Assembly: GCA_036495095.1 (NCBI GenBank)
Contig: DASXNK010000079.1
Coordinates: 1 to 63,513, forward strand
DNA: 63,513 bases
Source: Candidatus Dormiibacterota bacterium
Lineage (GTDB): Bacteria; Chloroflexota; Dormibacteria; Aeolococcales; Aeolococcaceae
Direction: 5' to 3'
This document shows, in pieces, positions 8,065 through 32,003 of this stretch. The notes below the pieces were generated by a model that was not told the DNA's origin, ran no database searches, and worked only from the letters and a program-made list of their open reading frames with translations. The translations under genes were made by a program, and so were the position numbers. Positions within the stretch are counted from its first letter, which is position 1. Every line of letters starts with the position of its first letter.

Positions 8065-9462
8065 ATGCAGAGGGTGCGTCACAGCCGCGACGGCGCCAGC
8101 GATGTCCATGCGGTGACGTACGCGGGGCGCTACTTCGCCGAGGAGGTGCCCAAGTACCGCATGCCCACCCGCGGCATGCCCGCCGACGCGGCGCTCCAGC
8201 TGGTCCGGGACGAGCTCAGCCTCGACGGCAACCCGGCGCTCAACCTCGCGTCGTTCGTGACCACGTGGATGGAGCCGGAGGCCGACCAGCTCTCCCTCGA
8301 CACCCGCAACAAGAACCTCATCGACCAGGACGAGTACCCGCAGACGAAGCAGATCCACGAGCGGGTGATGAGCATGCTCGGGCACATGCTCAACCCTCCC
8401 CGCGAGTGCACCCCGGTGGGCACGGCGACGGTGGGCTCGTCGGAGGCGATCATGCTCGCCCTGCTCGCCCACAAGCGTGCCTGGGCGAACCGGCGCAGGG
8501 CGGCCGGGCTGCCCGCCGACCGTCCCAACCTCGTCTTCGGCGCCGACGTGCACACCTGCTGGGAGAAGTTCACCCGCTACTTCGAGGTGGAGGAGCGGGT
8601 GGTGCCGATGACCCACGACCGCTTCGTGCTCGACGCCGCCGGCGCACGCGGGCACGTCGACGAGAACACCATCGCCATCGGCGCGGTGGTGGGCACCACC
8701 TACACCGGGCAGATGGACGACGTCGCCGGCCTCGACGCGCTCGCCGGCGAGCTCGAGCGCGAGCACGGCTGGACCATCCCCATCCACGTCGACGCCGCCA
8801 GCGGCGGGTTCATCCTGCCCTTCACGGAGCCGGAGCTCCGCTGGGACTTCCGGCTCGAGCACGTGCGCTCGATCAACCTCTCCAACCACAAGTACGGCCT
8901 CGTCTACCCGGGGATGGGGACGGTGCTGTTCCGCGACCGCGGTGACCTGCCCGAGGAGCTGGTCTTCCACATCACCTATCTGGGCGGCGACATGCCCAAC
9001 TACAGCCTCAACTTCTCGCGGCCCAGCACCCAGGTCACGCTCCAGTACTACAACCTTCTCCGGCTCGGCCGCGAGGGATACGCGCGGATCATGTCGAACA
9101 TCATGGCCAACGCCCACCACCTCCGCGACCGCCTCCTCGACGGCGGGCGCTTCGCCCCCGCCGGCGACGGGCGGCTGTTCCCGGTGGTCGCGCTGCGCGC
9201 CCTCGATCCGCAGAGCCTCGACCTGTTCGCGCTCTCCCAGCGGCTCCGCCAGCGGGGCTGGATCGTGCCCGCCTACCCGCTGCCCGCGGACGCCCAGGAC
9301 ATCACCGTGCTGCGGATGGTGGTCCGCGAGAACCTCAGCCGGGACATGTGCGACATGCTCGTGGACGACGTCGACGCCGCGGTCCGGGACGTCTGGGGTC
9401 CGACCAGCGGGCCGCCGGTGGCCCACGGGATGCGCCGGCAGGATCCGCGGCCGGTCTGCTGA
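8065..9462 (+). CDS. gadB: Glutamate decarboxylase (PLP-dependent)
   Basis: 465 residues, the length of bacterial GadB. The PLP lysine lies in SNHKYGL at Lys276, the same number as in E. coli GadB. VDAASGG carries the Asp that contacts the PLP nitrogen, and ATVGSSEAIMLALLAHK and NLIDQDEYPQT are other family blocks. The enzyme converts glutamate plus a proton to GABA and CO2 in the cytoplasm, giving acid resistance when coupled to a GABA antiporter. No antiporter gene is next to it. A CGGAGG ribosome site precedes the ATG. It may be a separate unit behind the catabolic operon. Confidence 0.93.
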   Translation: MQRVRHSRDGASDVHAVTYAGRYFAEEVPKYRMPTRGMPADAALQLVRDELSLDGNPALNLASFVTTWMEPEADQLSLDTRNKNLIDQDEYPQTKQIHERVMSMLGHMLNPPRECTPVGTATVGSSEAIMLALLAHKRAWANRRRAAGLPADRPNLVFGADVHTCWEKFTRYFEVEERVVPMTHDRFVLDAAGARGHVDENTIAIGAVVGTTYTGQMDDVAGLDALAGELEREHGWTIPIHVDAASGGFILPFTEPELRWDFRLEHVRSINLSNHKYGLVYPGMGTVLFRDRGDLPEELVFHITYLGGDMPNYSLNFSRPSTQVTLQYYNLLRLGREGYARIMSNIMANAHHLRDRLLDGGRFAPAGDGRLFPVVALRALDPQSLDLFALSQRLRQRGWIVPAYPLPADAQDITVLRMVVRENLSRDMCDMLVDDVDAAVRDVWGPTSGPPVAHGMRRQDPRPVC

Positions 9463-20406: not shown

Positions 20407-23211
20407 CTACGGAGTCGGGCTCGGGGTCGCCGCGGGTGCGCCGCCGTGCACCCCGCCGCGCATCAGTGGCAGGGTGAACCGCGTTTTCGCCTCCGAGCTG
20501 TCGGCGAACGCATTGCTCACCTTCGGGAATCCCTCGGAGTTGAGCCGGTCCGTCCAGTAGCTGAGCGCATCCGGGCTCTCCGGGTCGCGCTGCAGGTACC
20601 GGTGGTACAGCAGCTTCACGACCACGTCCGGGCTGCCGGCGACCGGCTCCGGGTTGCCGGTCGGTCCGGCGAACTCCCAGAAGGCGAGCAGGTCGGCCTG
20701 CGCCTGGGGGCCGCTCCTGTCACCGGCTGCCTGGGCGACGATCAGCTGGCCGACATTGGTCCATGCCAGCTTGGGGATGCCGCCGGTGCCGACGTAGCAG
20801 AAGAGGTGGCCGTGCGCGGTGGGGGAGGCGATGCTGTCCTGTGCCTCGACTCCGGCGATGGGATAGGTCGACGCCGCGAAGTAGCCCGACTCCGGGTCGG
20901 CACAGGCGCCGCTGTACGCCGTCCCCACCGACCTCCCCGCCTCGCCCTGGATGTTGAGCGCCAGCACGTGGTGGAAGTGGAGCTCGAGGTCGCCGTAGTT
21001 GGAGAACTGCTGGAACACGACGCTGTGGGCGCCGGGGTGGTCGGGCGAGGGCTGGCACTCGACCTCGGCGATCGTGGTGTCGTAGTGGTTGGCGTAGCGG
21101 TGGCAGTTCTGCACGAATGGCGGGAAGCGGGTCGCCAGCGACCGCTCCGCGGCGGTGGGATACGGGGGCGGGCCGGCCTTCGCCGCCGGCGCGACCGGGC
21201 GCCCGCCGGAGCGGGAGTGCATCAGCAGCCCGGCGCCGGCAACCGCGACCGCCACCATCGCGGCGGTGCCGGCGAGCACCGGCATCATCCGGCGGCGTCC
21301 CCGCGGGCGGTCCCCGGCGGCCGCCGGGCTGTCCGCCGGCGGCGGCGGAGGCGGCGTCGCGGCGGGCTGCGAGACCGCGGCGGCGCCGGTCGCGGCGGCC
21401 GGGGCCTCCGCCGGCGCGAGCGTCTCCGCCTCCACGGGCGCCTGCTCCGCCTCGGCGGCGGGCTCGGCGGTGCGCGCCCGCACCGCGGTCAGCTGCTCGC
21501 CGATGCGCTCGCGCGAGGGATGGGCGGCGACCAGCGCGGTCAGCTCGTCGACCAGGGCCTCGTGCCGCTCCAGCTCGAGGTCGGCCTCGATGCGCTCCTC
21601 GAGCGCGGTGAGCCGCAGCTCCTCGATGCGCGCCACCTCGGCGCGGGCCGCGCCCTCGAGGCTGACGCCGTCGAACGCCGGTCCGCGCCAGAGCTCGAGC
21701 GCCTCGCGCAGCACCGCCGAGGCGCGCTCCGGGGTGGAGCGGCGCAGCCGCCGGCCCTGCTCGACGAGGCGCTCGAAGCGGCCGAGGTCGACGTCGTCGG
21801 CGTCGACCCGGAGCAGGTAGCCGGGGGAGCGGTTCACCAGGATGCTTGGGGTGCCGCCACCGCCCCGGGTCCGGCCGGGCTCCAGCGCCCGCCGCAGCGT
21901 GGTGACGTGGGTCTGCAGCGCCTTCGCCGCCGCCTCCGGCGGGGTCCGGTCGCCCCAGAGGGCGTCGACGAGGCTCTCGGTGGAGACCACCATGTTGGTC
22001 TCCATCAGCAGCCGGGCGAGCAGCGCGCGCTGCCGGCCGGTGCCCACGGAGAGCTCGCGGTCGCCGTCCCAGACCTCGAGCGGCCCCAGCACCCTGAAGT
22101 CGAGGTGGGGCGGGGGCTCGGGAACCGGAGTGGCGGGGGTGGCGGCGGTACCCCCGGCCGCCGTGGCCCGCCTCGGGGTCCGCACCGGCGGGGGTGCGAC
22201 CACCCGGGTCTCCGGCACCGGCGCGGGTGCGACCACCCGGGTCTCCGGCACCGGCGCGGGTCCGGGCTGGACCACCCGGGTGTCGGACACCGAGCCCGGG
22301 GTGGCGATGACCGTCGCCGACGAGCGGCGCCGTGCCCGGGTGGCACCGGCCCCGCGCGTCCCCCGCTCGCCGAGGGCGCGCCGCGCCGCCGCCGCCAGCT
22401 CGGTGCCGGTCGCGTAGCGCTCCTCGCGCGACTTGGCCATCGCCCTGACCACCACGGCGTCGAGCCCGAGCGGCAGCCCCGACCGCTTCGCGCTCAGCAG
22501 CGGCGGGTCCTCCGCGAGGTGCGCGTAGATGCTCGCGGCGTCGTTGTCCTTCTGGAAGGGCGGCACCCCGGTCAGCGACTCGTACAGCACGCAGCCGAGC
22601 GCGTAGATGTCGGTGCGCCCGTCCACGCTCTCGCCCTTGATCTGCTCGGGCGCGACGTAGTCGAGGGTGCCCACGTACTGCCCGGTCTTGGTGAGGCTGC
22701 GGGTGCTGCTGTTCTTGGTGATGCCGAAGTCGGCGACGTAGGCGTGGTCGGAGCTCTGCGGATCGGCCCGGGGCACCACCAGGATGTTCGCCGGCTTGAC
22801 GTCGCGGTGGTACAGGCCGCGGGCGTGTGCGGCGTCGAGCGCGCCGCCGACCTGGGCGACGATCGCGACCGCGCGCGCCGCGTCGAGGGGGCCCTCGCGA
22901 CGCACCAGCGCGCCGAGGTCGCAGCCGTCGACGTGGCGCATGGCGATGTAGAGGTTCCCCTCCGACTCGCCGGCCTCGTAGATGGGAATGATGTTGGGGT
23001 GGTCGATGGAGGCGGCCAGCCGGGGCTCGCGGGCGAAGCGCTGGCGCACCCGCTCGTCGTTGGACAGCTCGGTGGCGAGGATCTTGAGGGCCACGCGTCG
23101 CTGCAGCCGCAGGTCGAGCGCGAGGTACACGATGCCGACCCCGCCCCGGCCGAGCAGCCGTTCGATGCGGTAGCCGGCGAACTCGGCTCCCACCTGCGGG
23201 ATGCCGCTCAT
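20407..23211 (-). CDS. Ser/Thr protein kinase fused to SARP-like winged helix/BTAD, membrane helix and ectodomain
   Basis: 934 residues. The kinase domain (about 14-275) has loop GRGGVG, Lys43, HRD at 135-137 (YHRDVKPAN) and DFG 161-163. A Pro/Thr linker carries an 11-residue duplication (TRVVAPAPVPE). A winged helix (about 373-470, LGPLEVWDGDRELSVGTGRQ) and a shortened BTAD region follow, as in AfsR/EmbR-type activators. One membrane helix lies near 650-670. The ectodomain ends in a DUF4214-like repeat (KLLYHRYLQRDPESPDALSY). In mycobacteria the kinase PknH and the activator EmbR are separate proteins; here both functions appear joined and membrane-tethered. A PP2C phosphatase gene lies directly upstream. 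Confidence 0.9.
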   Translation of the reverse strand: MSGIPQVGAEFAGYRIERLLGRGGVGIVYLALDLRLQRRVALKILATELSNDERVRQRFAREPRLAASIDHPNIIPIYEAGESEGNLYIAMRHVDGCDLGALVRREGPLDAARAVAIVAQVGGALDAAHARGLYHRDVKPANILVVPRADPQSSDHAYVADFGITKNSSTRSLTKTGQYVGTLDYVAPEQIKGESVDGRTDIYALGCVLYESLTGVPPFQKDNDAASIYAHLAEDPPLLSAKRSGLPLGLDAVVVRAMAKSREERYATGTELAAAARRALGERGTRGAGATRARRRSSATVIATPGSVSDTRVVQPGPAPVPETRVVAPAPVPETRVVAPPPVRTPRRATAAGGTAATPATPVPEPPPHLDFRVLGPLEVWDGDRELSVGTGRQRALLARLLMETNMVVSTESLVDALWGDRTPPEAAAKALQTHVTTLRRALEPGRTRGGGGTPSILVNRSPGYLLRVDADDVDLGRFERLVEQGRRLRRSTPERASAVLREALELWRGPAFDGVSLEGAARAEVARIEELRLTALEERIEADLELERHEALVDELTALVAAHPSRERIGEQLTAVRARTAEPAAEAEQAPVEAETLAPAEAPAAATGAAAVSQPAATPPPPPPADSPAAAGDRPRGRRRMMPVLAGTAAMVAVAVAGAGLLMHSRSGGRPVAPAAKAGPPPYPTAAERSLATRFPPFVQNCHRYANHYDTTIAEVECQPSPDHPGAHSVVFQQFSNYGDLELHFHHVLALNIQGEAGRSVGTAYSGACADPESGYFAASTYPIAGVEAQDSIASPTAHGHLFCYVGTGGIPKLAWTNVGQLIVAQAAGDRSGPQAQADLLAFWEFAGPTGNPEPVAGSPDVVVKLLYHRYLQRDPESPDALSYWTDRLNSEGFPKVSNAFADSSEAKTRFTLPLMRGGVHGGAPAATPSPTP
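22196..22261. repeat. Two perfect 33-bp tandem repeats inside the kinase linker
   Basis: 22196-22228 and 22229-22261 are identical 33-bp units (GCGACCACCCGGGTCTCCGG plus 13 bases), with a diverged third unit after them. They encode the 11-residue duplication TRVVAPAPVPE between the kinase and the DNA-binding domain. Copy number may vary between strains. Confidence 0.8.
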
Positions 23212-23245
23212 GTCAGCCCCCCCCTCCCTCCACTGAGTCCCGAGA

Positions 23246-23251
23246 AGGATA
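23246..23251 (-). promoter_or_regulatory. -10-like TATCCT upstream of the kinase gene
   Basis: On the minus strand TATCCT lies 34 bases before the ATG at 23211, with a purine-rich ribosome site between. No good -35 is seen. It may give the kinase gene its own promoter behind the phosphatase gene. Confidence 0.3.
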
Positions 23252-23273
23252 GCCGAGCCCGGGCCCGGTGTCC

Positions 23274-24089
23274 TCAGCCGCTCTCGCCGTTGGCGGCGGC
23301 GGCCACCCGGCAGGCGACGAGGGTGACGTTGTCGCGCGAGCCCGCCTCCAGGGCGGCGTCGCAGGCGCGGGTCAGCAGCCCCTCGAGCGGACCCTCGCCG
23401 CCGAGCAGGCGGCCGAGCTGGTCACCGCCGAGGGGGTCCCAGGCACCGTCGCAGCAGAGCAGCAGGACGTCGCCGGCGCGCAGCTCCACCGAGAAGCGGT
23501 CGGCGTCGACGGGCTCGCCGGTGAGCGCCCGGGTGAGCAGGTTGCGTGGCGGGTCGGCGGCGCCTCCCAGCTCGAGGTGCCCGGCGCGGATCGCCTCGGC
23601 GAGCACCGAGTGGTCCTCGGTGACCTGCGCCGCGCCGCCGTCGCGGAGCAGGTAGGCGCGGCTGTCGCCGACGTTGCTGATCGACGCCCGTCCGGCGCTC
23701 ACCGCCGCCAGCACCAGGGTGGTGCCCATCACCGCGCCGCCGTGGTCGCGGCGCAGCTCGGCGATCGCCGCATTGGCGCTCTCGCCGGCCTCGCCGAGGC
23801 CGGCATGGGGATCGGGGCTCACCCGGAGATGATCGGCGGCGTGGCGCACCGCCAGCACCGCGGCCTCGCGGCCGCCAGCGTGCCCGCCCATCCCGTCGGC
23901 GAGCAGCAGCAGGCATCCGCGATCGGGGTCGAGCGGCACCAGCGACCAGGCGTCCTGGTTCTCCGCGCGCACCGTGCCGCGGTCGCTGACGGCGGCGAGC
24001 TCGAGCAGGAGACCGCCGTCGGCGGCAATGGCGGCCTGCATGATCCGCGCCTCGGTCACCACCAGCCCCCTCCTCACCCGCGGGTGCAT
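23274..24089 (-). CDS. PP2C-family Ser/Thr phosphatase
   Basis: 271 residues with the PP2C motif series: VSDRGTVRAENQDAW near 34, DGMGGHAGG near 65, SNVGDSRAYLLRDG near 137, TEDHSV, CCDGAWD near 214 and SRDNVTLVA near 251; the metal-binding Asp residues are present. It removes phosphate from Ser/Thr and is the natural opponent of the kinase whose gene starts 62 bases downstream. It may also act on an FHA-bound partner such as the product at 34703. ATG 24089 gives a 16-residue leader before the conserved domain; ATG codon 17 is an alternative start. Confidence 0.9.
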   Translation of the reverse strand: MHPRVRRGLVVTEARIMQAAIAADGGLLLELAAVSDRGTVRAENQDAWSLVPLDPDRGCLLLLADGMGGHAGGREAAVLAVRHAADHLRVSPDPHAGLGEAGESANAAIAELRRDHGGAVMGTTLVLAAVSAGRASISNVGDSRAYLLRDGGAAQVTEDHSVLAEAIRAGHLELGGAADPPRNLLTRALTGEPVDADRFSVELRAGDVLLLCCDGAWDPLGGDQLGRLLGGEGPLEGLLTRACDAALEAGSRDNVTLVACRVAAAANGESG

Positions 24090-24169: not shown

Positions 24170-25108
24170 TCAGGAGCCGGAACGGGTCGGGATCCGGACT
24201 CCGCCGGCGACCACGGCGCAGTTGCGCCCCGCCGACTTGGCCTCGTAGAGGGCGGCGTCGGCGCGGCGCACCAGCGCCTCGTGGTCCTCGACACCGGAGG
24301 CGCAGCCGATGCTCACCGTCACCGCGACGCTGGTCGCGCCCTCGGTGACGAAGGGCCGGCCGGCGATCGCGCCGACGATGCGCTGAGCGAGCGTCCCGGC
24401 GGCGGCGGCGTCGGTGGCGGCGCCCAGCACCAGGAACTCCTCGCCTCCCCAGCGGCCCACCACGTCCTCCTGGCGCACCCTGCGGCGCAGCCGCTCGGCG
24501 ACCTGGCGCAGCACCGCGTCACCGCCGGCGTGGCCGAGGGTGTCGTTGATCTGCTTGAAGTTGTCGACGTCGATCATCAGCACCGCGGCGGGCTCCTGAT
24601 GGCGGCGCGCGGCCGCGAGCATCTCCTGGAGCCGCTCCTCGAGGTGGCGGCGGTTGAAGATCCCGGTCAGCGCATCGGTACGGGTCACCGTCTCCAGCTC
24701 CGCGTTGCGCCGGCGGAGCTCGTCCTGCAGCGACTTGACCCGCAGCGCGGCGCTCACCCGGGCGATCAGCTCGCTGGCCTCGAACGGCTTGCGCAGGTAG
24801 TCGTGGGCGCCCTCCGACAGGCCCCGGACCACGTCCTCGGTCTCGGCATGCGCGGTGAGGAAGACCACCGGGATCTCGCGCATCTCCGGGTCCTCGCGGA
24901 TGATCCGCAGCACGGTGTGGCCGTCGAGCCCGGGCATCTGCACGTCGAGGAGCACGACGTCGGGGCGGAGCATGCGGCAGCCGCGCACCGCCTGGTGACC
25001 GTCCTCCGCCTCCTCCACGCGCAGGCCGCGGGCCTCGAGCTGGCGCCGGAGCATCACCCGCACCACCCTCGAGTCGTCGGCGACCAGCACCAGGTGCCCC
25101 CCGCTCAC
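24170..25108 (-). CDS. Response regulator-diguanylate cyclase (REC-GGDEF, WspR/PleD-like)
   Basis: 312 residues. The receiver (about 4-122) has ADDSRVV, phosphoacceptor Asp in VVLLDVQMPG and Lys in YLRKPF. After a helical linker the cyclase domain carries the active site GGEEF at 221-225. The inhibitory site RQED lies exactly five residues before it (RQEDVVGRW), so product inhibition should be intact. It makes c-di-GMP from two GTP. It is the last gene of the chemosensory operon and overlaps the CheW gene before it by 4 bases, the position expected for the output of a Wsp-type array. Confidence 0.92.
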   Translation of the reverse strand: MSGGHLVLVADDSRVVRVMLRRQLEARGLRVEEAEDGHQAVRGCRMLRPDVVLLDVQMPGLDGHTVLRIIREDPEMREIPVVFLTAHAETEDVVRGLSEGAHDYLRKPFEASELIARVSAALRVKSLQDELRRRNAELETVTRTDALTGIFNRRHLEERLQEMLAAARRHQEPAAVLMIDVDNFKQINDTLGHAGGDAVLRQVAERLRRRVRQEDVVGRWGGEEFLVLGAATDAAAAGTLAQRIVGAIAGRPFVTEGATSVAVTVSIGCASGVEDHEALVRRADAALYEAKSAGRNCAVVAGGVRIPTRSGS

Positions 25109-25497
25109 CGGCGCAGCCGCCGCTCGATGGCGGGCGCGTCGACCACGAACAGGAGGTCGCGGCGCCGCGCGGACACGGTGCCGCCGACCAGCGCGTCGCG
25201 CTGCCCCCGAGGGGCCTCGCCGACGCTGCCGTCGTCGAGGTGCTCGATCCCGACCACCGCGTCGACGAGCAGGGCGAAGGGCTCACCACCGGTGTCGAGG
25301 ACGATGACGTGGCTGCCGCCGGGCCCGAGCGGGGCGACCACGCTGAGGGCGAGGTCGTGCCAGCGCAGCATCCCGACCACGTCGGCCTCGAGGGTCGGCA
25401 GGGGCGTGACCTCGCTGGCGGGCCGGACCTCGCGGCAGTGCTCGACGGGCACGGCATAGTGCCCGTCACCGTTGCGGAACACGAGCACGGTGGTCAT
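25105..25497 (-). CDS. CheW-like coupling protein (first of two; WspB/D-like)
   Basis: 130 residues with the CheW fold pattern: VLVFRNGDGHYAVPVEHCRE at the N-terminus, VVGMLRWHDLALSVVAPLG in the middle and FALLVDAVVGIEHL near 86. It links receptor tips to the kinase CheA. Its start and stop overlap the neighbouring genes (25494-25497 and 25105-25108), so it is tightly coupled to CheR-TPR and the cyclase. It is divergent in sequence from the second CheW at 29758. Confidence 0.85.
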   Translation of the reverse strand: MTTVLVFRNGDGHYAVPVEHCREVRPASEVTPLPTLEADVVGMLRWHDLALSVVAPLGPGGSHVIVLDTGGEPFALLVDAVVGIEHLDDGSVGEAPRGQRDALVGGTVSARRRDLLFVVDAPAIERRLRR

Positions 25498-26702
25498 CGG
25501 CGAGCCTCCAGGCGGGCGGCGAGCAGGGCGGCGAGGGCACCGCGGTCGGGGCCCTGGAGGTCGCTGTCCGCGACCGCGTCCGCGGAGCGGGCGAGGGCGG
25601 CGCGTGCCGCGGTGAAGGCGCGGGCGGCGGCCCCGGCGTCTCCCGCCGCCTCGAGGGCGACGCCGAGCGACGCGTGGGCGGCGCCGTGGTCCGGCGCGAG
25701 GAAGGCGGCCTGCCGGAAGCTGCGGATGGCGCGGTCCAGATCGCCGGCGGCTGCGGCGGCCTCCCCGGCGGCGAGAAGCTCGCCGAGCCGAGGCAGCGCG
25801 GCCGGCGGCGGCACCGGCCGCCGGGTGCGGCTGGGGGGGCTGGGGGGGCTGGGGGCCCGGGCCGGGTGCGGGGCGGCGGCGGGGTGGTGGCGCACCGACC
25901 CGGAAGCGGCACCGGCGCCGGCGCGGCGGTGCACGAAGGCGTCACCGAGGCGCACCACCTCGAAGCCCGGCGGCGCCGACCCGCCGGCGTCCGAGGATGC
26001 GAGGAAGAGCAGCTGGCCGGGGGTGAGGTGGGCGGCGAAGCGGGCGAGCAGCGCCGCCGCGTCGGGCTCGCGCAGGTAGATGATCACGTTGCGGCAGAAG
26101 ATGACGTCGAGGCCGCCGGGCGGTCCCGGGGCCGCGTCGGTGGTGAGGCCCTGCCGGCGCACCTCCACCCGTTCGCGCAGCGCGGGGACCACCTCGAAGC
26201 CGCCGGGCACGGGCCGGAGGTGGCGGGCGCGCCGCTGGGGGTCGAGGCCTCGCAGCTCGCGGTCGACGTAGCTGCCGGCAGCGGTGCGGGCAAGCGCTCG
26301 GGTGGAGACGTCGGTGGCCACCACCCGCCAGTCCGCCACCGGCGACTCGGCGAGCACCATGGCCAGGCTGTAGGCCTCCTGGCCGTTGGCGCAGCCGGCG
26401 CTCCAGACCGTCACCGGCCGCCCGGCGCAGTGCTCGCGCAGGTGCTGGGCGAGCGCCAGGAAGTGCGCGTCCTCGCGGAAGAACCAGCTCTCCTGCACGG
26501 TCACCAGGTCGCAGAGCAGCTGGGTCTCGGCGCCGCCGTCGGCGAGCCGCCCGGCGAAGTCGAGGACGTCCGCGTCCGCCGCCGCCGCGGCGTCCACCAG
26601 GCAGCGTTCCAGGCGGCCGCGCATCGCCGCCTCGTGACGCAGCCCGATGGCCCGCTCCAGCGCCGTCTCGGCGAGGCGCACGGCGTCGCTCGACCGCGTC
26701 AT
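25494..26702 (-). CDS. CheR methyltransferase with C-terminal TPR (WspC-like)
   Basis: 402 residues. The methyltransferase domain (about 15-265) has the SAM-binding motif VWSAGCANGQEAYSLAMVL, FCRNVIIYL and LFLASSD. A Pro-rich linker and a TPR-like C-terminus (about 310-400, AIRSFRQAAFLAPDHGAAHA) follow. It methylates Glu residues on the receptor for adaptation. A CheR carrying a TPR tail is characteristic of Wsp-type systems (WspC) rather than flagellar ones. It overlaps both neighbours by 4 bases. Confidence 0.9.
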   Translation of the reverse strand: MTRSSDAVRLAETALERAIGLRHEAAMRGRLERCLVDAAAAADADVLDFAGRLADGGAETQLLCDLVTVQESWFFREDAHFLALAQHLREHCAGRPVTVWSAGCANGQEAYSLAMVLAESPVADWRVVATDVSTRALARTAAGSYVDRELRGLDPQRRARHLRPVPGGFEVVPALRERVEVRRQGLTTDAAPGPPGGLDVIFCRNVIIYLREPDAAALLARFAAHLTPGQLLFLASSDAGGSAPPGFEVVRLGDAFVHRRAGAGAASGSVRHHPAAAPHPARAPSPPSPPSRTRRPVPPPAALPRLGELLAAGEAAAAAGDLDRAIRSFRQAAFLAPDHGAAHASLGVALEAAGDAGAAARAFTAARAALARSADAVADSDLQGPDRGALAALLAARLEARR

Positions 26703-27709
26703 CGCGCGGCTCCCGCGGCGGCGGAGCGCACCGCGGCGGCAATGAGGTCGAGGGCGGTGAGCCGGTCCACCGCGCCCCGCTGCTGCGCCGCACGGGGCAT
26801 CCCGAAGACCGCGCAGCTGGCCTCGTCCTGGGCGATCACCACGCCGCCCCGCTGCTGGAGAGCGAGCAGCCCGGCGGCACCGTCGTCACCCATCCCGGTG
26901 AGCACGACGCCGATCCCGGAGCCGCCGGCGTGCTCCGCGATGGAGCGGAAGAGGACGTCGGCGGAGGGGCGGTGGATCGACGGTGGCTCGGCGGCGAGCG
27001 CCACCCGCCGGGATCCGCCGAGGCCGAGGTGGACTCCCGGCGGAGCGACGTGCACCCACCCCTCGCGCAGCGCCATGCCGGCGGTCGCCACCTCGACGGG
27101 GAGCGCCGAGCTGCGGCGGAGGAGCTCGACGAACCCGGCGAGGAAGCGCTCGTCGATGTGCTGCACCAGCAGCACGGCGGCGCGGAGGCCCTCGAGCTGC
27201 CCCAGCACCCGGGCGAGCGCCGGCGGCCCGCCGGTGGAGGCGGCGATCCCGACCACGGGCATCCCCCGGTTCGCGCCGCCGAGCAGCCGCCCCCGGGTGT
27301 GCCGCACCACCGTCACCCGCCGGAGCATGCGCACCCGCCCGCGCAGCCGGCGGGCGTCGTCCTCACCCCAGCTCCGGGGGTTGACGATGCATTCCAGCGC
27401 CCCCGCGGCGATCGCCTCGCCGGGAAGCCGGCCGTCGCCGCCGCGGGGGTGGAGGACGAGGACGGGGACCGGGGAGTGGGCCATCACCTGGTCGATGACC
27501 GCGAGGCCGGCGTCGATCGCGGCGGGGGTTGCGGCGAGGTCGACGGCGAGCAGGTCGGGGCGCAGGGTGCGGGTGGCGCGGGCCGCCATCGCGGCGGTGG
27601 TCTGTGCCACCACCGAGATGTCGCCCTCGGCCTCGAGCGCGCGCAGCAGGGCGCCGCGTGAGCCGCCGTCGTCGCTCGCCACCACCACCGAGACGCGCCC
27701 CGTGCTCAC
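26699..27709 (-). CDS. CheB methylesterase with degenerate receiver (WspF-like)
   Basis: 336 residues from GTG 27709, overlapping the kinase stop. The esterase domain (about 148-330) keeps the catalytic Ser in GIAASTGGPPAL, His in LVQHIDERF and Asp in TGMGDDGAAGL. The N-terminal receiver (about 4-120) keeps an acidic pair (ASDD) and a candidate phosphoacceptor Asp (LLAVDLA). It lacks the invariant Lys: where KP is expected it reads ECIVNPRS. Esterase activity should remain, but control by phosphorylation may be weak or lost, making demethylation constitutive. Confidence 0.9.
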   Translation of the reverse strand: MSTGRVSVVVASDDGGSRGALLRALEAEGDISVVAQTTAAMAARATRTLRPDLLAVDLAATPAAIDAGLAVIDQVMAHSPVPVLVLHPRGGDGRLPGEAIAAGALECIVNPRSWGEDDARRLRGRVRMLRRVTVVRHTRGRLLGGANRGMPVVGIAASTGGPPALARVLGQLEGLRAAVLLVQHIDERFLAGFVELLRRSSALPVEVATAGMALREGWVHVAPPGVHLGLGGSRRVALAAEPPSIHRPSADVLFRSIAEHAGGSGIGVVLTGMGDDGAAGLLALQQRGGVVIAQDEASCAVFGMPRAAQQRGAVDRLTALDLIAAAVRSAAAGAAR

Positions 27710-29754
27710 CTCCGGCCGCCGAGCAGGCGGTCGACGGCGTCGAGCAGGGTGGCCTGGTCGAACGCGCTCTTCACCAGGTAGCCGTCGGCGCCGGCCTCGA
27801 GGCCGCGGCGGCGGTCCTCGTCGCCGGACCGCGAGGTGAGCACCAGCACCGCGGTGTTGCGCAGCGCCTGGTGGGCCCGGATCGCCTCGGTGAGGGCGAA
27901 CCCGTCCATGCGCGGCATCTCCACGTCGGTGAGCACCAGGTCGGCGGGCCGCTCGGCGAGCCGCGAGAGCGCCTCCAGGCCGTCGCCGGCGGTGCGCACG
28001 TCGTAGCCGGCGCGCATCAGGATCGACCGCTGCAGCTCGCGCACGGTGAGGGCGTCGTCGACGACGAGCACGCTGCGCCCGGGGCGCGCCACCGGCGGGG
28101 CCGCCACCACCGGGGCGGGCCGGTGGATGCGCCGGGCGCGCTCGATCAGCGCTCCGGGCTCGAGCACGACGAGGACCGACCCGTCGGCCTCGATCGCCGC
28201 CCCGGCGACCACGTCGAGATCGGGCATCAGGCCGCCCAGGCTCTTCAGCACCACGTCGCGCTGCCCCTCCAGGGCGTCGACGCGCACCGCGTGGCTGCGG
28301 GTCGCCCCGGTGAGCACCAGCGCCGGGCCCTGCCCGCCGCCCTCCCCGGTTCCCAGGAGCACCTCCAGGTCGGTCACCGGCACCGCCCGGCCACCGGCCA
28401 TGACCATCTGGCGGCCGCCGGCGTGGAGGGTGGCCGGATCGCCCGCGTTCACCGCGGTGAGCACCGCCTGGGCGGGGAGCGCGTAGCGGCGGGCGCCGCA
28501 GCGCACCACCAGGCAGGGCACCACCGCGAGCGTGATCGGGACCGAGAGGCGGAACTCGCAGCCGCGCCCCGGCTCGTTGTGCACCTCGATGCGGCCCCGG
28601 ATCGCCTGGAGCTGGGCGCGCACCACGTCGAGGCCGACGCCGCGTCCGGAGACGTCGGTGAGCTCTCGCGCGGTGGACACGCCGGAGCGGAAGATGCCGC
28701 CGATGGCGGTCTCGTCGTCGTCCTCGGCGGCGGCGTTCCCGGCCGCCCGGACCGCGTCGACGTCGATGCCGCGTCCGTCGTCGCCGACCACCAGGACCAC
28801 CTCCGACCCGAGCCGGTCGGCGTGGAGACGCACCGTGCCGTGGCGTGGCTTGCCCGCCGCGGCGCGCTCGTCCGGGGTCTCGACGCCATGGTCCACGGCG
28901 TTGCGCACCAGGTGGAGCAGCGGGTCGGCGAGCCGGTCGAGGACGTGCCGGTCGACCTCGGTGTCCTCGCCGCGCACCTCCCACACCACCTCCTTGCCGA
29001 GGGCGCGGGCGAGGTCGCGCACCGCCCGGTGGAGGGGATGGGTGATCGTCGACACCGGCACCATCCGGGTCCGCATCGTCAGCTCCTGGAGCTGCCCGAG
29101 GGTGCGGGCGAGGTCACGGAACTCGGTGATCGTCGAGGGCTGCTGCCCGGTGGCCTGGGCGAGGAGGTGGCCGGTGCGGAGCAGCGCCGTCGACGACTCC
29201 GTGACCAGGCGGACCAGCTCGTCGAGCCGGGCCACGGGCACGGCGATGGTCGGGGCCTCGGCGCGCGGCGAGGGCGGAGGCGCGGGGGCGGGCTCGCCGG
29301 CCCTCGCGGGCGCGAGCGGGACCGCTGCCGGCTCCGGAGCGGCGGCCGGGGGCCGCCCGGCGGCGCGGCGGAGCCGGTCCTCGAGGGCGTCGGCCTCGGC
29401 ATCGTGGTCCTGCTCCCTGCCGGCGGCGTCGATCACCGTGCGCAGCCCGTCGACCGCCGCCAGGGCCGCGTCGACGAGCTCGGAGGAGATGCCGGCGCGG
29501 CCGTCGCGATAGGGGTCGAGCAGGTCCTCGAGGAGGTGGGCGAGACGGGTGACCCGGGGCAGGCCGACCATCGCCGAGCCGCCCTTCAGGGTGTGCGCCT
29601 CGCGCAGCAGCGCGGTCACCATCTCGGCGCGGCCGGCCTTGCCCTCGAGGCTGAGCAGGCTCGCAGCGAGGAGGTCGAGGCGTCCCCGGGCCTCCTCGGC
29701 GAAGAGGCCGCGGAACTCGGCGTCGTGCCCGAAGGGCCGCTCCACGGCGTCCAT
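27706..29754 (-). CDS. Hybrid chemotaxis kinase CheA-REC (WspE-like)
   Basis: 682 residues. The Hpt domain has His54 (REAHTLKGGSAMVG). A Pro/Ala linker without a clear P2 domain follows, then dimerisation helices near 200-260. The ATPase domain has LVRNAVDHGVETPDERAAAG and DDGRGID, then a CheW-like domain near 420-545. A C-terminal receiver (about 560-680) has DDA, phosphoacceptor Asp in LVLTDVEMPRMDG and Lys in YLVKSAF. The receiver on the kinase is a Wsp/Chp-type trait. It should phosphorylate the cyclase at 24170. ATG 29754 lies 3 bases after the CheW stop. Confidence 0.92.
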   Translation of the reverse strand: MDAVERPFGHDAEFRGLFAEEARGRLDLLAASLLSLEGKAGRAEMVTALLREAHTLKGGSAMVGLPRVTRLAHLLEDLLDPYRDGRAGISSELVDAALAAVDGLRTVIDAAGREQDHDAEADALEDRLRRAAGRPPAAAPEPAAVPLAPARAGEPAPAPPPSPRAEAPTIAVPVARLDELVRLVTESSTALLRTGHLLAQATGQQPSTITEFRDLARTLGQLQELTMRTRMVPVSTITHPLHRAVRDLARALGKEVVWEVRGEDTEVDRHVLDRLADPLLHLVRNAVDHGVETPDERAAAGKPRHGTVRLHADRLGSEVVLVVGDDGRGIDVDAVRAAGNAAAEDDDETAIGGIFRSGVSTARELTDVSGRGVGLDVVRAQLQAIRGRIEVHNEPGRGCEFRLSVPITLAVVPCLVVRCGARRYALPAQAVLTAVNAGDPATLHAGGRQMVMAGGRAVPVTDLEVLLGTGEGGGQGPALVLTGATRSHAVRVDALEGQRDVVLKSLGGLMPDLDVVAGAAIEADGSVLVVLEPGALIERARRIHRPAPVVAAPPVARPGRSVLVVDDALTVRELQRSILMRAGYDVRTAGDGLEALSRLAERPADLVLTDVEMPRMDGFALTEAIRAHQALRNTAVLVLTSRSGDEDRRRGLEAGADGYLVKSAFDQATLLDAVDRLLGGRR

Positions 29755-29757
29755 CCT

Positions 29758-30159
29758 CTAGGCGCCGCCGGTGCGGGCGGGGTCGAGCACGGTGTCGAGA
29801 TCGAGGAGCGTCACCAGCCGGGCGCCGCAGCGGTGCACCGCCAGCGCCCCGGGCAGCTCGGGAGCGGCCACCACCTCGGCGAGCTCGCCCACCTCGGGAA
29901 GGGCGGTGGCGACCAGCGCTCCCCGTCCCGACGCGGTGTCCACCACCACGGCGTACGTCCACGACCCCGCCGGCGCCGCACCCAGGAGGACGCCGAGGTC
30001 GAGCAGGGGGACGATGTCACCGCGCACGTTGAGCAGCCCGCGGATCCATGCCGGCGCGGTGGGCACCGGGGTCGGGTGGGGGTCGGAGACCACCTCGCGC
30101 GCGGCCGCGACCGGCACCGCGTAGACGTCGTCCCCGAGCGGGACCAGCAGCGCCCGCAC
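29758..30159 (-). CDS. CheW-like coupling protein (second)
   Basis: 133 residues from GTG 30159: RALLVPLGDDVYAVPVAAAR, IRGLLNVRGDIVPLLDLGVL and VHRCGARLVTLLDLDTVL are the usual CheW segments. It starts 2 bases after the receptor stop and ends 3 bases before the kinase ATG. The pairing of two different CheW proteins with one receptor is the pattern of WspB and WspD. Confidence 0.88.
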   Translation of the reverse strand: MRALLVPLGDDVYAVPVAAAREVVSDPHPTPVPTAPAWIRGLLNVRGDIVPLLDLGVLLGAAPAGSWTYAVVVDTASGRGALVATALPEVGELAEVVAAPELPGALAVHRCGARLVTLLDLDTVLDPARTGGA

Positions 30160-30161
30160 TC

Positions 30162-32003
30162 TCAGCGACCGCCGCCGGCGCCCACGGCGACGTCGAGGTC
30201 GGTGGCCAGGCCCGCCTGCGCGGCGGCGGCGGCGGCGATCTCCTGGGCGGTCGCCGACACCTGGCGGCTGCTCACCGTCACCTGCTCCATCGCGGACACC
30301 ACCTGCTCGGTCGCTGAGCGCTGCTGCTGGGTGGTCATGCGCACCTGGGCGCAGCTCTCCACGACCCGCTCCATCAGCGCCAGCCCGGCCTGCATCTGCT
30401 TGGCGCCCTTCTCCATCGCCATCACCGTGGCGTTGGTCTCGGCCTGGGTCCCCTGGACGATGTGGCCGATCTCCCCGGCGGAGGTCTTCGAGCGCTCGGC
30501 GAGGCGGCGGACCTCGTCGGCGACCACGGCGAAGCCACGCCCCGCCTCGCCGGCGCGGGCGGCCTCGATGGCGGCGTTGAGGGCGAGCAGGTTGGTCTGG
30601 TCGGAGAGGTCGTTGATCAGCGTGAGGATGGCGTTGATGTCGGTGACCCTGGTGGCCAGGCTGAGGGTGCGCTCGCTGGAGACGCGCATGTCCTCCTGCG
30701 CCTGCTCGAGGCTCTGCCGGGTCTCCTCGGCCTGAGCCGCGACCTCGTCGAGGGTCTGGGCCACCGAGCCGGCGGCGCGCGCCAGCTCCTCCATGCTCGC
30801 CGAGGTCTCGGTCGCGGCCGAGCTCTGCTCCACGGTGCTGGCGGCGAGCTGCTCCGAGGCGCTGCTCAGCCGGAGCGCCGACCCGGCGCTGTCGGCGCTC
30901 GCGATGCGCAGCCGCTCGACCAGGTCGGAGAGCCGCTGCACCATTCCGTTGAAGGCGGCACCGAGCCGGACCAGCTCGGCGGCGCCGCCCGGGTGCACCC
31001 GCACCGAGAGGTCGCCGGCGGCGACCCGGTCGGCGGCCTGGCTCAGCTCGGTGATCGGCCGGGTGGTGCGGCGGGCGAAGACGACCGCGAAGCCGGTGAG
31101 CAGCAGCGCTCCGGCGACCACCAGGACGACGGCGAGGGTGCGCAGCCCGTCGATCGGGCTCAGCGCCGCGCCGGCGTTCTCCGAGACCACCACCGCCCAG
31201 TCGACCCCCTGGACGGTGTCGTATCCGGCGAGGACGTCGTCGCCGTTCTCGCCCGGCCCGCGGACGGCGCCTGACCTGCCGCCGAGCCCGGCCTCGACCG
31301 CGGCGGTGCGCACCTGGGTCTGGAGCGCGCCGGCGGCGATCATGGTGGCGTCGGAGCCGACCGGCATCCCGGTCCGGTAGACGAGGTGGTGGTCCTGGTC
31401 GACCGCCACCAGCTGGCTGCTGGCGCGGGTGTTGGCGTCGAGGTCGCGCAGGGTGGTCGCCAGAGCCGCCGGGCGGAGCACCGCCACGACCACCGCCTCG
31501 GGGCGGCCGTCGGCGCCGTTCACCGGGGCGGAGACGAACCAGCGGAGGTGGCCCCCCTGGTTCCTGATCGGGCTGAGCACCGGCCCCGCGGCCGCGGCCT
31601 GGAACCAGTCCTGGCCGCCCACGTCGAGGCCGAGCTGCGGATCGGTGGCGGCGATGACGCGGCCGCCGAGGTCGACGACCTCGAGCACCGAGTAGGGGTC
31701 GGAGGGGGTGGGGGGCGGGAGCAGCGCCCTGCTGGAGGCGGTCACCGGCCGGCCGCCGAGGAGGGCGGCGGCGTGGGTCAGGTCGCGGTTGCGCTCCTCG
31801 AGCCACCCCTCGAGCCGCGAGGTCGCCGCCCGGGCGAGGTTCTCGGCGGAGATCGAGCTCTCGTCGGCGATCGTCGCCGAGGCGCTCCGGCTCAGCAGCA
31901 CGGCGAGCAGCACCATGATCGGCAGCGCGGCGGCGAGCACGCCGGCGAGCAGCCGGACGAAGAAGCGGCTGCGGTGGTCGGCCCAGATGGAGCGGAGATC
32001 CAT
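30162..32003 (-). CDS. Methyl-accepting chemotaxis protein (WspA-like receptor)
   Basis: 613 residues. TM1 is about 16-40. An extracellular region of about 245 residues has double-Cache character ([36 protein letters not shown]). TM2 is near 285-310, followed by HAMP ([20 protein letters not shown]) and a signalling domain with hairpin tip [20 protein letters not shown]. It has no C-terminal CheR-docking pentapeptide, consistent with a TPR-bearing CheR. It is the first gene of the seven-gene operon, after a 164-base gap. The ligand is unknown; Wsp receptors respond to surface contact or envelope stress. Confidence 0.92.

Follow-up and report, generated by a model that had tools for sequence, protein, structure and literature searches.

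Wsp, known from Pseudomonas, where it senses surfaces, and from Betaproteobacteria, is a chemosensory system that combines a receptor, two CheW proteins, a CheA-REC kinase, CheB and a TPR-bearing CheR with a REC-GGDEF cyclase that has a GGEEF motif and an I-site. It has been identified by wspA-F synteny together with at least 30% identity, and has been reported only from Beta- and Gammaproteobacteria (PMC8552884). Chemosensory pathways of Chloroflexi have been classed as ACF, use CheR-TPR and occur where flagella are absent, and GGDEF response regulators are found in ACF clusters (PMC3447774). In addition, a cyanobacterial cluster from Phormidesmis priestleyi has a Wsp-like parts list outside the Proteobacteria (PMC4971617), with a class 3 adenylate cyclase in the output position where the locus described here has a diguanylate cyclase.

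The window, which is the whole stretch of 63,513 nucleotides that was analysed, corresponds to contig C79 of a 4.38 Mb genome (96.6% complete) of a Candidatus Dormiibacterota bacterium (Chloroflexota), and contains a chemosensory cluster of seven genes, given here in the direction of transcription:

30162-32003, minus strand: MCP chemoreceptor, 613 aa, with dCache_1 (46-274), HAMP (308-359) and MCPsignal (425-595) domains
29758-30159, minus strand: CheW1, 133 aa, GTG start
27706-29754, minus strand: CheA-REC hybrid kinase, 682 aa, with Hpt (H54), HATPase, CheW and REC domains
26699-27709, minus strand: CheB methylesterase, 336 aa, GTG start, with a degenerate receiver and a catalytic domain
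25494-26702, minus strand: CheR methyltransferase, 402 aa, with a short C-terminal TPR
25105-25497, minus strand: CheW2, 130 aa
24170-25108, minus strand: REC-GGDEF diguanylate cyclase, 312 aa, GTG start

The seven open reading frames (24170-32003) have no internal stops and a third-position GC of 0.94-0.98, and their products match the expected Pfam families well over the cut-off (CheB 189 bits, GGDEF 160, CheR 139, MCPsignal 120). The dCache_1 match in the MCP lies barely at the Pfam cut-off (45.1 vs 45), and TPR_16 in CheR is under the cut-off yet significant (2.5e-4). Reading frames and domains thus bear out a preliminary description of seven co-directional genes of these types, and also the intact GGEEF and RxxD sites that it ascribed to the cyclase, the I-site reading RQED. 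The tightness of the junctions holds as well, but there are six of them rather than the five claimed: in the 5' to 3' direction, gaps of 2 and 3 bases are followed by four 4-base overlaps. The active-site motifs of CheA, namely the Hpt histidine, the ATPase boxes and the REC residues, are intact, while the MCP has a signalling domain of 36H length and lacks a C-terminal CheR pentapeptide.

All three CheW-domain matches in the genome (CheW1, CheA and CheW2) fall within the cluster, which is therefore its only complete chemosensory system. A further dCache-HAMP MCP, encoded alone on another contig (L065:11324-13132, G000:C24), has a related signalling domain and presumably feeds the same CheA. 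The 96.6% complete genome gave no match to FlhA, while control genomes gave the expected matches, in line with the earlier remark that no flagellar gene is present. The non-proteobacterial background suggested from the sequence is likewise correct: one contig (G025:C146) of another genome in the family is base-for-base identical to DNAU01000364.1 ('Chloroflexi bacterium UBA12275').

The cluster has the features by which ACF pathways are delimited in PMC3447774, that is, a complete core, a multidomain output that is not of motility type, CheR-TPR and no flagella, and it shares with the Chloroflexi pathways described there the phylum label and the ACF-type multidomain response regulator. Since Chloroflexi ACF pathways and GGDEF outputs were already known, it is a distinct, lineage-specific variant and not the first of its type. 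The other Chloroflexota clusters read here mostly have stand-alone REC or Hpt-REC proteins, whereas the window cluster ends in CheW-REC-GGDEF and its CheA belongs to a clade of its own; two of the others (L194 and L197) have REC-GGDEF too. Taken together, sequence features indicate that the locus probably encodes a self-contained phosphorelay of the ACF kind with c-di-GMP output, Wsp-like in its working and separate in its lineage.

The preliminary description had called the operon Wsp-type. For the comparison, annotated or recognisable clusters from Azoarcus, Mesorhizobium, Novosphingobium, Cupriavidus, Burkholderia and Variovorax served as Wsp references. All seven Wsp component types, including the REC-GGDEF output, are present, so the parts list stands together with the likely logic of an array, a CheA kinase and a cyclase, and the cluster likely works like Wsp. 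Membership in Wsp is not supported. The gene order is MCP-W-A-B-R-W-DGC in the window as against MCP-W-R-W-A-B-DGC in the references (L147, L149, L150), which departs from the synteny of PMC8552884. Identity to the reference set used here does not reach 30% throughout: it exceeds 30% locally for CheA, the CheB catalytic domain and the cyclase, is about 30% for the MCP and 29-36% for CheR, and CheW2 has no match to WspD at E 1e-3.

The receptors also differ. The window receptor has a dCache_1 sensor, while the three WspA references scanned have 4HB_MCP_1, and in the alignment each arm of the WspA signalling hairpin is longer by 14 residues than that of the window receptor, the length of which equals that of E. 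coli Tar. Tar belongs to the 36H class, so that the window receptor is 36H-like and WspA 40H-like. The combination of a 4HB sensor and 40H length, a trait common to the WspA references and no formal definition, is not found in the window receptor. Homology to WspA therefore lends no support to surface or envelope sensing, which had been proposed for this lineage; the usual ligands of dCache domains are small molecules.

CheA is 86% identical in a genome of the same genus, the contig of which stops within cheR and so covers no cyclase position, 55-61% identical in two sister genera and 52% in one genome of another family of the same class, and is absent from many relatives; judged by these matches, the distribution of the cluster in this Chloroflexota class is patchy. 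In the best covered sister genus (g12), the genes run CheW-CheA-CheB-CheR-CheW-REC-GGDEF as in the window; no MCP adjoins it, and the MCP genes of that genus sit on contigs other than that of its cluster. The genes that flank the cluster in the window were not found beside it in relatives. The order CheA-CheB-CheR-TPR-CheW-REC-GGDEF is thus kept while the surroundings change, which argues for a functional unit. Downstream of the cyclase, after 80 bases and on the same strand, comes a PP2C phosphatase gene, followed by a gene for a Ser/Thr kinase fused to Trans_reg_C and BTAD domains, with a weak DUF4214 match (window positions 20407-24089); since the pair does not accompany the cluster in relatives, both genes were rejected as cluster parts and no function was drawn from them.

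The cyclase itself retains the receiver residues DD/D/T/K. The linker from the receiver Lys to the DxLT motif has 38 residues in the window cyclase and in two relatives, and its residues before DALT, read by eye as Leu -7, Leu -14, Val -4 and Thr -3, match the a/d/e pattern of the register switch in Rec-GGDEF enzymes (PMC8041772). By analogy with DgcR, this pattern would be consistent with a cyclase that is activated by phosphorylation. In phmmer searches, PleD and DgcR gave the best scores and WspR the third. The window cyclase thus resembles DgcR of Leptospira, PleD and WspR (PMC8041772) in architecture and linker register pattern, but it is linked to a CheA array instead of an ordinary histidine kinase.

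It could still be asked whether the locus is a true Wsp, that is, an orthologue of WspA-F and WspR, transferred or inherited vertically, with reordered genes, a swapped receptor domain and a role in surface or envelope sensing. The match of all seven component types would be expected under such an origin, and AU tests did not reject window CheA and WspE as one clade (p 0.44; 0.32 in a second test) or the window cyclase and the broad WspR branch as sisters (p 0.35). In the trees of the CheA core, however, the window family and WspE each form a clade of their own (100/100), with the window CheA outside WspE; once Chloroflexota are included, WspE is joined, with weak support, by a Deinococcus plasmid cluster and a single further Chloroflexota CheA, and not by the window family. 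In the cyclase tree, the window clade (99/98) lies outside the WspR branch (100/98). A strict clade of the window cyclase family and six WspR gave an AU p of 0.005, partly since WspR is not closed in the tree, and in view of the fairer value of 0.35 the tree-based claim is limited to the cyclase not being inside WspR. Moreover, CheA is 34-37% identical to WspE yet 38-40% to CheA of Thermoleophilia, Myxococcus and other Chloroflexota, and the receptor is 40% identical to a Thermoleophilia receptor (105 bits) as against 30-31% to WspA (at most 47 bits), each arm being two heptads shorter. Gene order, class of receptor, the CheA and cyclase clades and homology to WspD all fail to place the cluster in Wsp, several of them exclude it, and a Wsp origin is improbable; the host phylum differs as well. 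A second alternative is a chemosensory system for type IV pili (Tfp-like) or another form of motility, to which the linked cyclase would be a mere side branch. The genome has T2SSE/PilB ATPases, two of them with PilC-like neighbours, and the AU test did not reject window CheA with Tfp at 0.05 (p 0.08), nor with flagellar CheA (p 0.31). In the CheA trees, flagellar and type IV pilus kinases nevertheless form supported clades apart from the window family, and the Tfp kinases, together with the Chloroflexota sequences L200 and L201, form their own clade (99/93) that leaves it out. The outcome that had been named beforehand as counting against the Wsp-type reading, proteins falling within a flagellar or type IV pilus class, was hence not recovered, even though neither grouping is rejected by the AU test. 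The cluster has no stand-alone REC, thus no PilG/PilH-type receiver, and no pilus gene, and the genome has no FlhA; both classes were rejected for the cluster since its CheA lies outside both clades, and a motility system of this sort has little likelihood.

A third reading concerns the output alone. The cyclase might be constitutive or controlled otherwise, while the chemosensory proteins act mainly through the CheA-attached REC or unlinked partners. The hybrid CheA does have its own intact REC, and at a locus with a related CheA from another family of the same class (L055) no cyclase is linked, with REC and REC-ParA/AAA proteins instead, so that CheA of the window clade is not tied to one kind of output. 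Against an independent cyclase, its gene shares 4 bases with cheW2 and still closes the cluster in the sister genus, and such a separation of the two therefore seems quite unlikely. A c-di-GMP output of the cluster is likely.

Most of the 79 CheB receivers surveyed retain the set D/E-D, D, S/T, K. The window CheB receiver, which is more degenerate than that of Wsp, reads S-D, D, H, N (S/T replaced by H, K by N), and those of the sister genera mostly read T-Q, D, V, Y/F. The window family keeps the catalytic Ser, His and Asp, and AlphaFold2 still predicts a receiver fold for the N-terminus (mean pLDDT 77.5, seven sequences). The receiver Lys is missing in all seven WspF references too, and in Lysobacter WspF residue D53 remains important in vivo (PMC9758175), so the loss of Lys alone is no proof of lost phosphorylation. 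Because the S/T is also lost here, as is the acidic pair in the sister genera, weak or absent control of CheB by CheA is likely, and these substitutions suggest that demethylation is probably little affected by the kinase or independent of it. CheB receivers without the Lys, sometimes with the acidic pair gone too, occur in L048, L050, L147-L151, L154, L194, L198, L152, L084 and the window family, a set that takes in every one of the seven Wsp references and two clusters with a cyclase output, L154 and L194; other clusters with such an output (L068, L088, L090, L120) retain the Lys.

In the mechanism preferred here, the dCache receptor, coupled through one or both CheW proteins, would control autophosphorylation of CheA at the Hpt residue H54, and the phosphate would pass from CheA to the receiver of the REC-GGDEF cyclase. 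Phosphorylation would then switch the coiled-coil linker of the cyclase and promote c-di-GMP synthesis, with product feedback through the I-site. The CheA-attached REC may serve as a competing acceptor or sink, and CheR-TPR and CheB would set receptor methylation. As a counterpoint, most of the phosphate could go to the REC attached to CheA, or the target of CheA could be an unlinked receiver.

Downstream, PilZ proteins were rejected as c-di-GMP effectors, since no PilZ was found in the genome, while control genomes gave the expected matches. Eight T2SSE ATPases are encoded, two of which are full-length PilB-type proteins with MshEN domains (L156:1483-3204 and L157:949-2667), each adjoined by a PilC-like gene. 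MshEN is a known c-di-GMP-binding domain, and by this domain the two ATPases are possible effectors; less certainly than the preceding steps, c-di-GMP might thus act through them on a type IV pilus or related machinery. The genome also has 23 GGDEF and 18 EAL domain matches, so global c-di-GMP control by the single cyclase of the cluster cannot be assumed.

The cluster is a component-for-component analogue of Wsp with separate CheA and cyclase branches, which raises the possibility that array control of c-di-GMP arose more than once. A broader proposal, which joins a Wsp-independent origin of chemosensory cyclase control in this Chloroflexota class, a dCache/36H receptor, adaptation uncoupled by CheB decay and c-di-GMP acting on MshEN-PilB rather than on flagella or PilZ, is tentative and on balance doubtful. 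As the sole complete chemosensory system of a genome with no detectable flagella, the cluster offers a simple setting for array function without flagella, and it poses the question of whether a second-messenger output requires CheB feedback regulated by phosphorylation.

Chemosensory clusters linked to REC-GGDEF also occur, in several gene orders, in Thermoleophilia, Nitrospirota, Desulfofervidaceae, Spirochaetaceae, Deinococcus and other Chloroflexota. A different, recurrent cluster, MCP-CheB-CheR-TPR-CheA-(REC)-Hpt-REC-REC-GGDEF, was seen in Halomonadaceae, Buttiauxella, Sulfurimicrobium, Stygiobacter and a deltaproteobacterium (L071, L073, L075, L080, L084, L098, L129). The Deinococcus actinosclerus plasmid cluster with REC-GGDEF output (L154:3019-11212) is mostly annotated as hypothetical proteins; its CheA-like protein has no Pfam Hpt, and a weak Hpt-like match lies in a separate open reading frame at 8505. 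Finally, full wspA-R synteny with WspE-clade kinases is present on two alphaproteobacterial plasmids, Mesorhizobium pWSM1497 (L150, 2934-11334) and one of Novosphingobium humi (L149), which speaks against Wsp being exclusive to Beta- and Gammaproteobacteria (PMC8552884).
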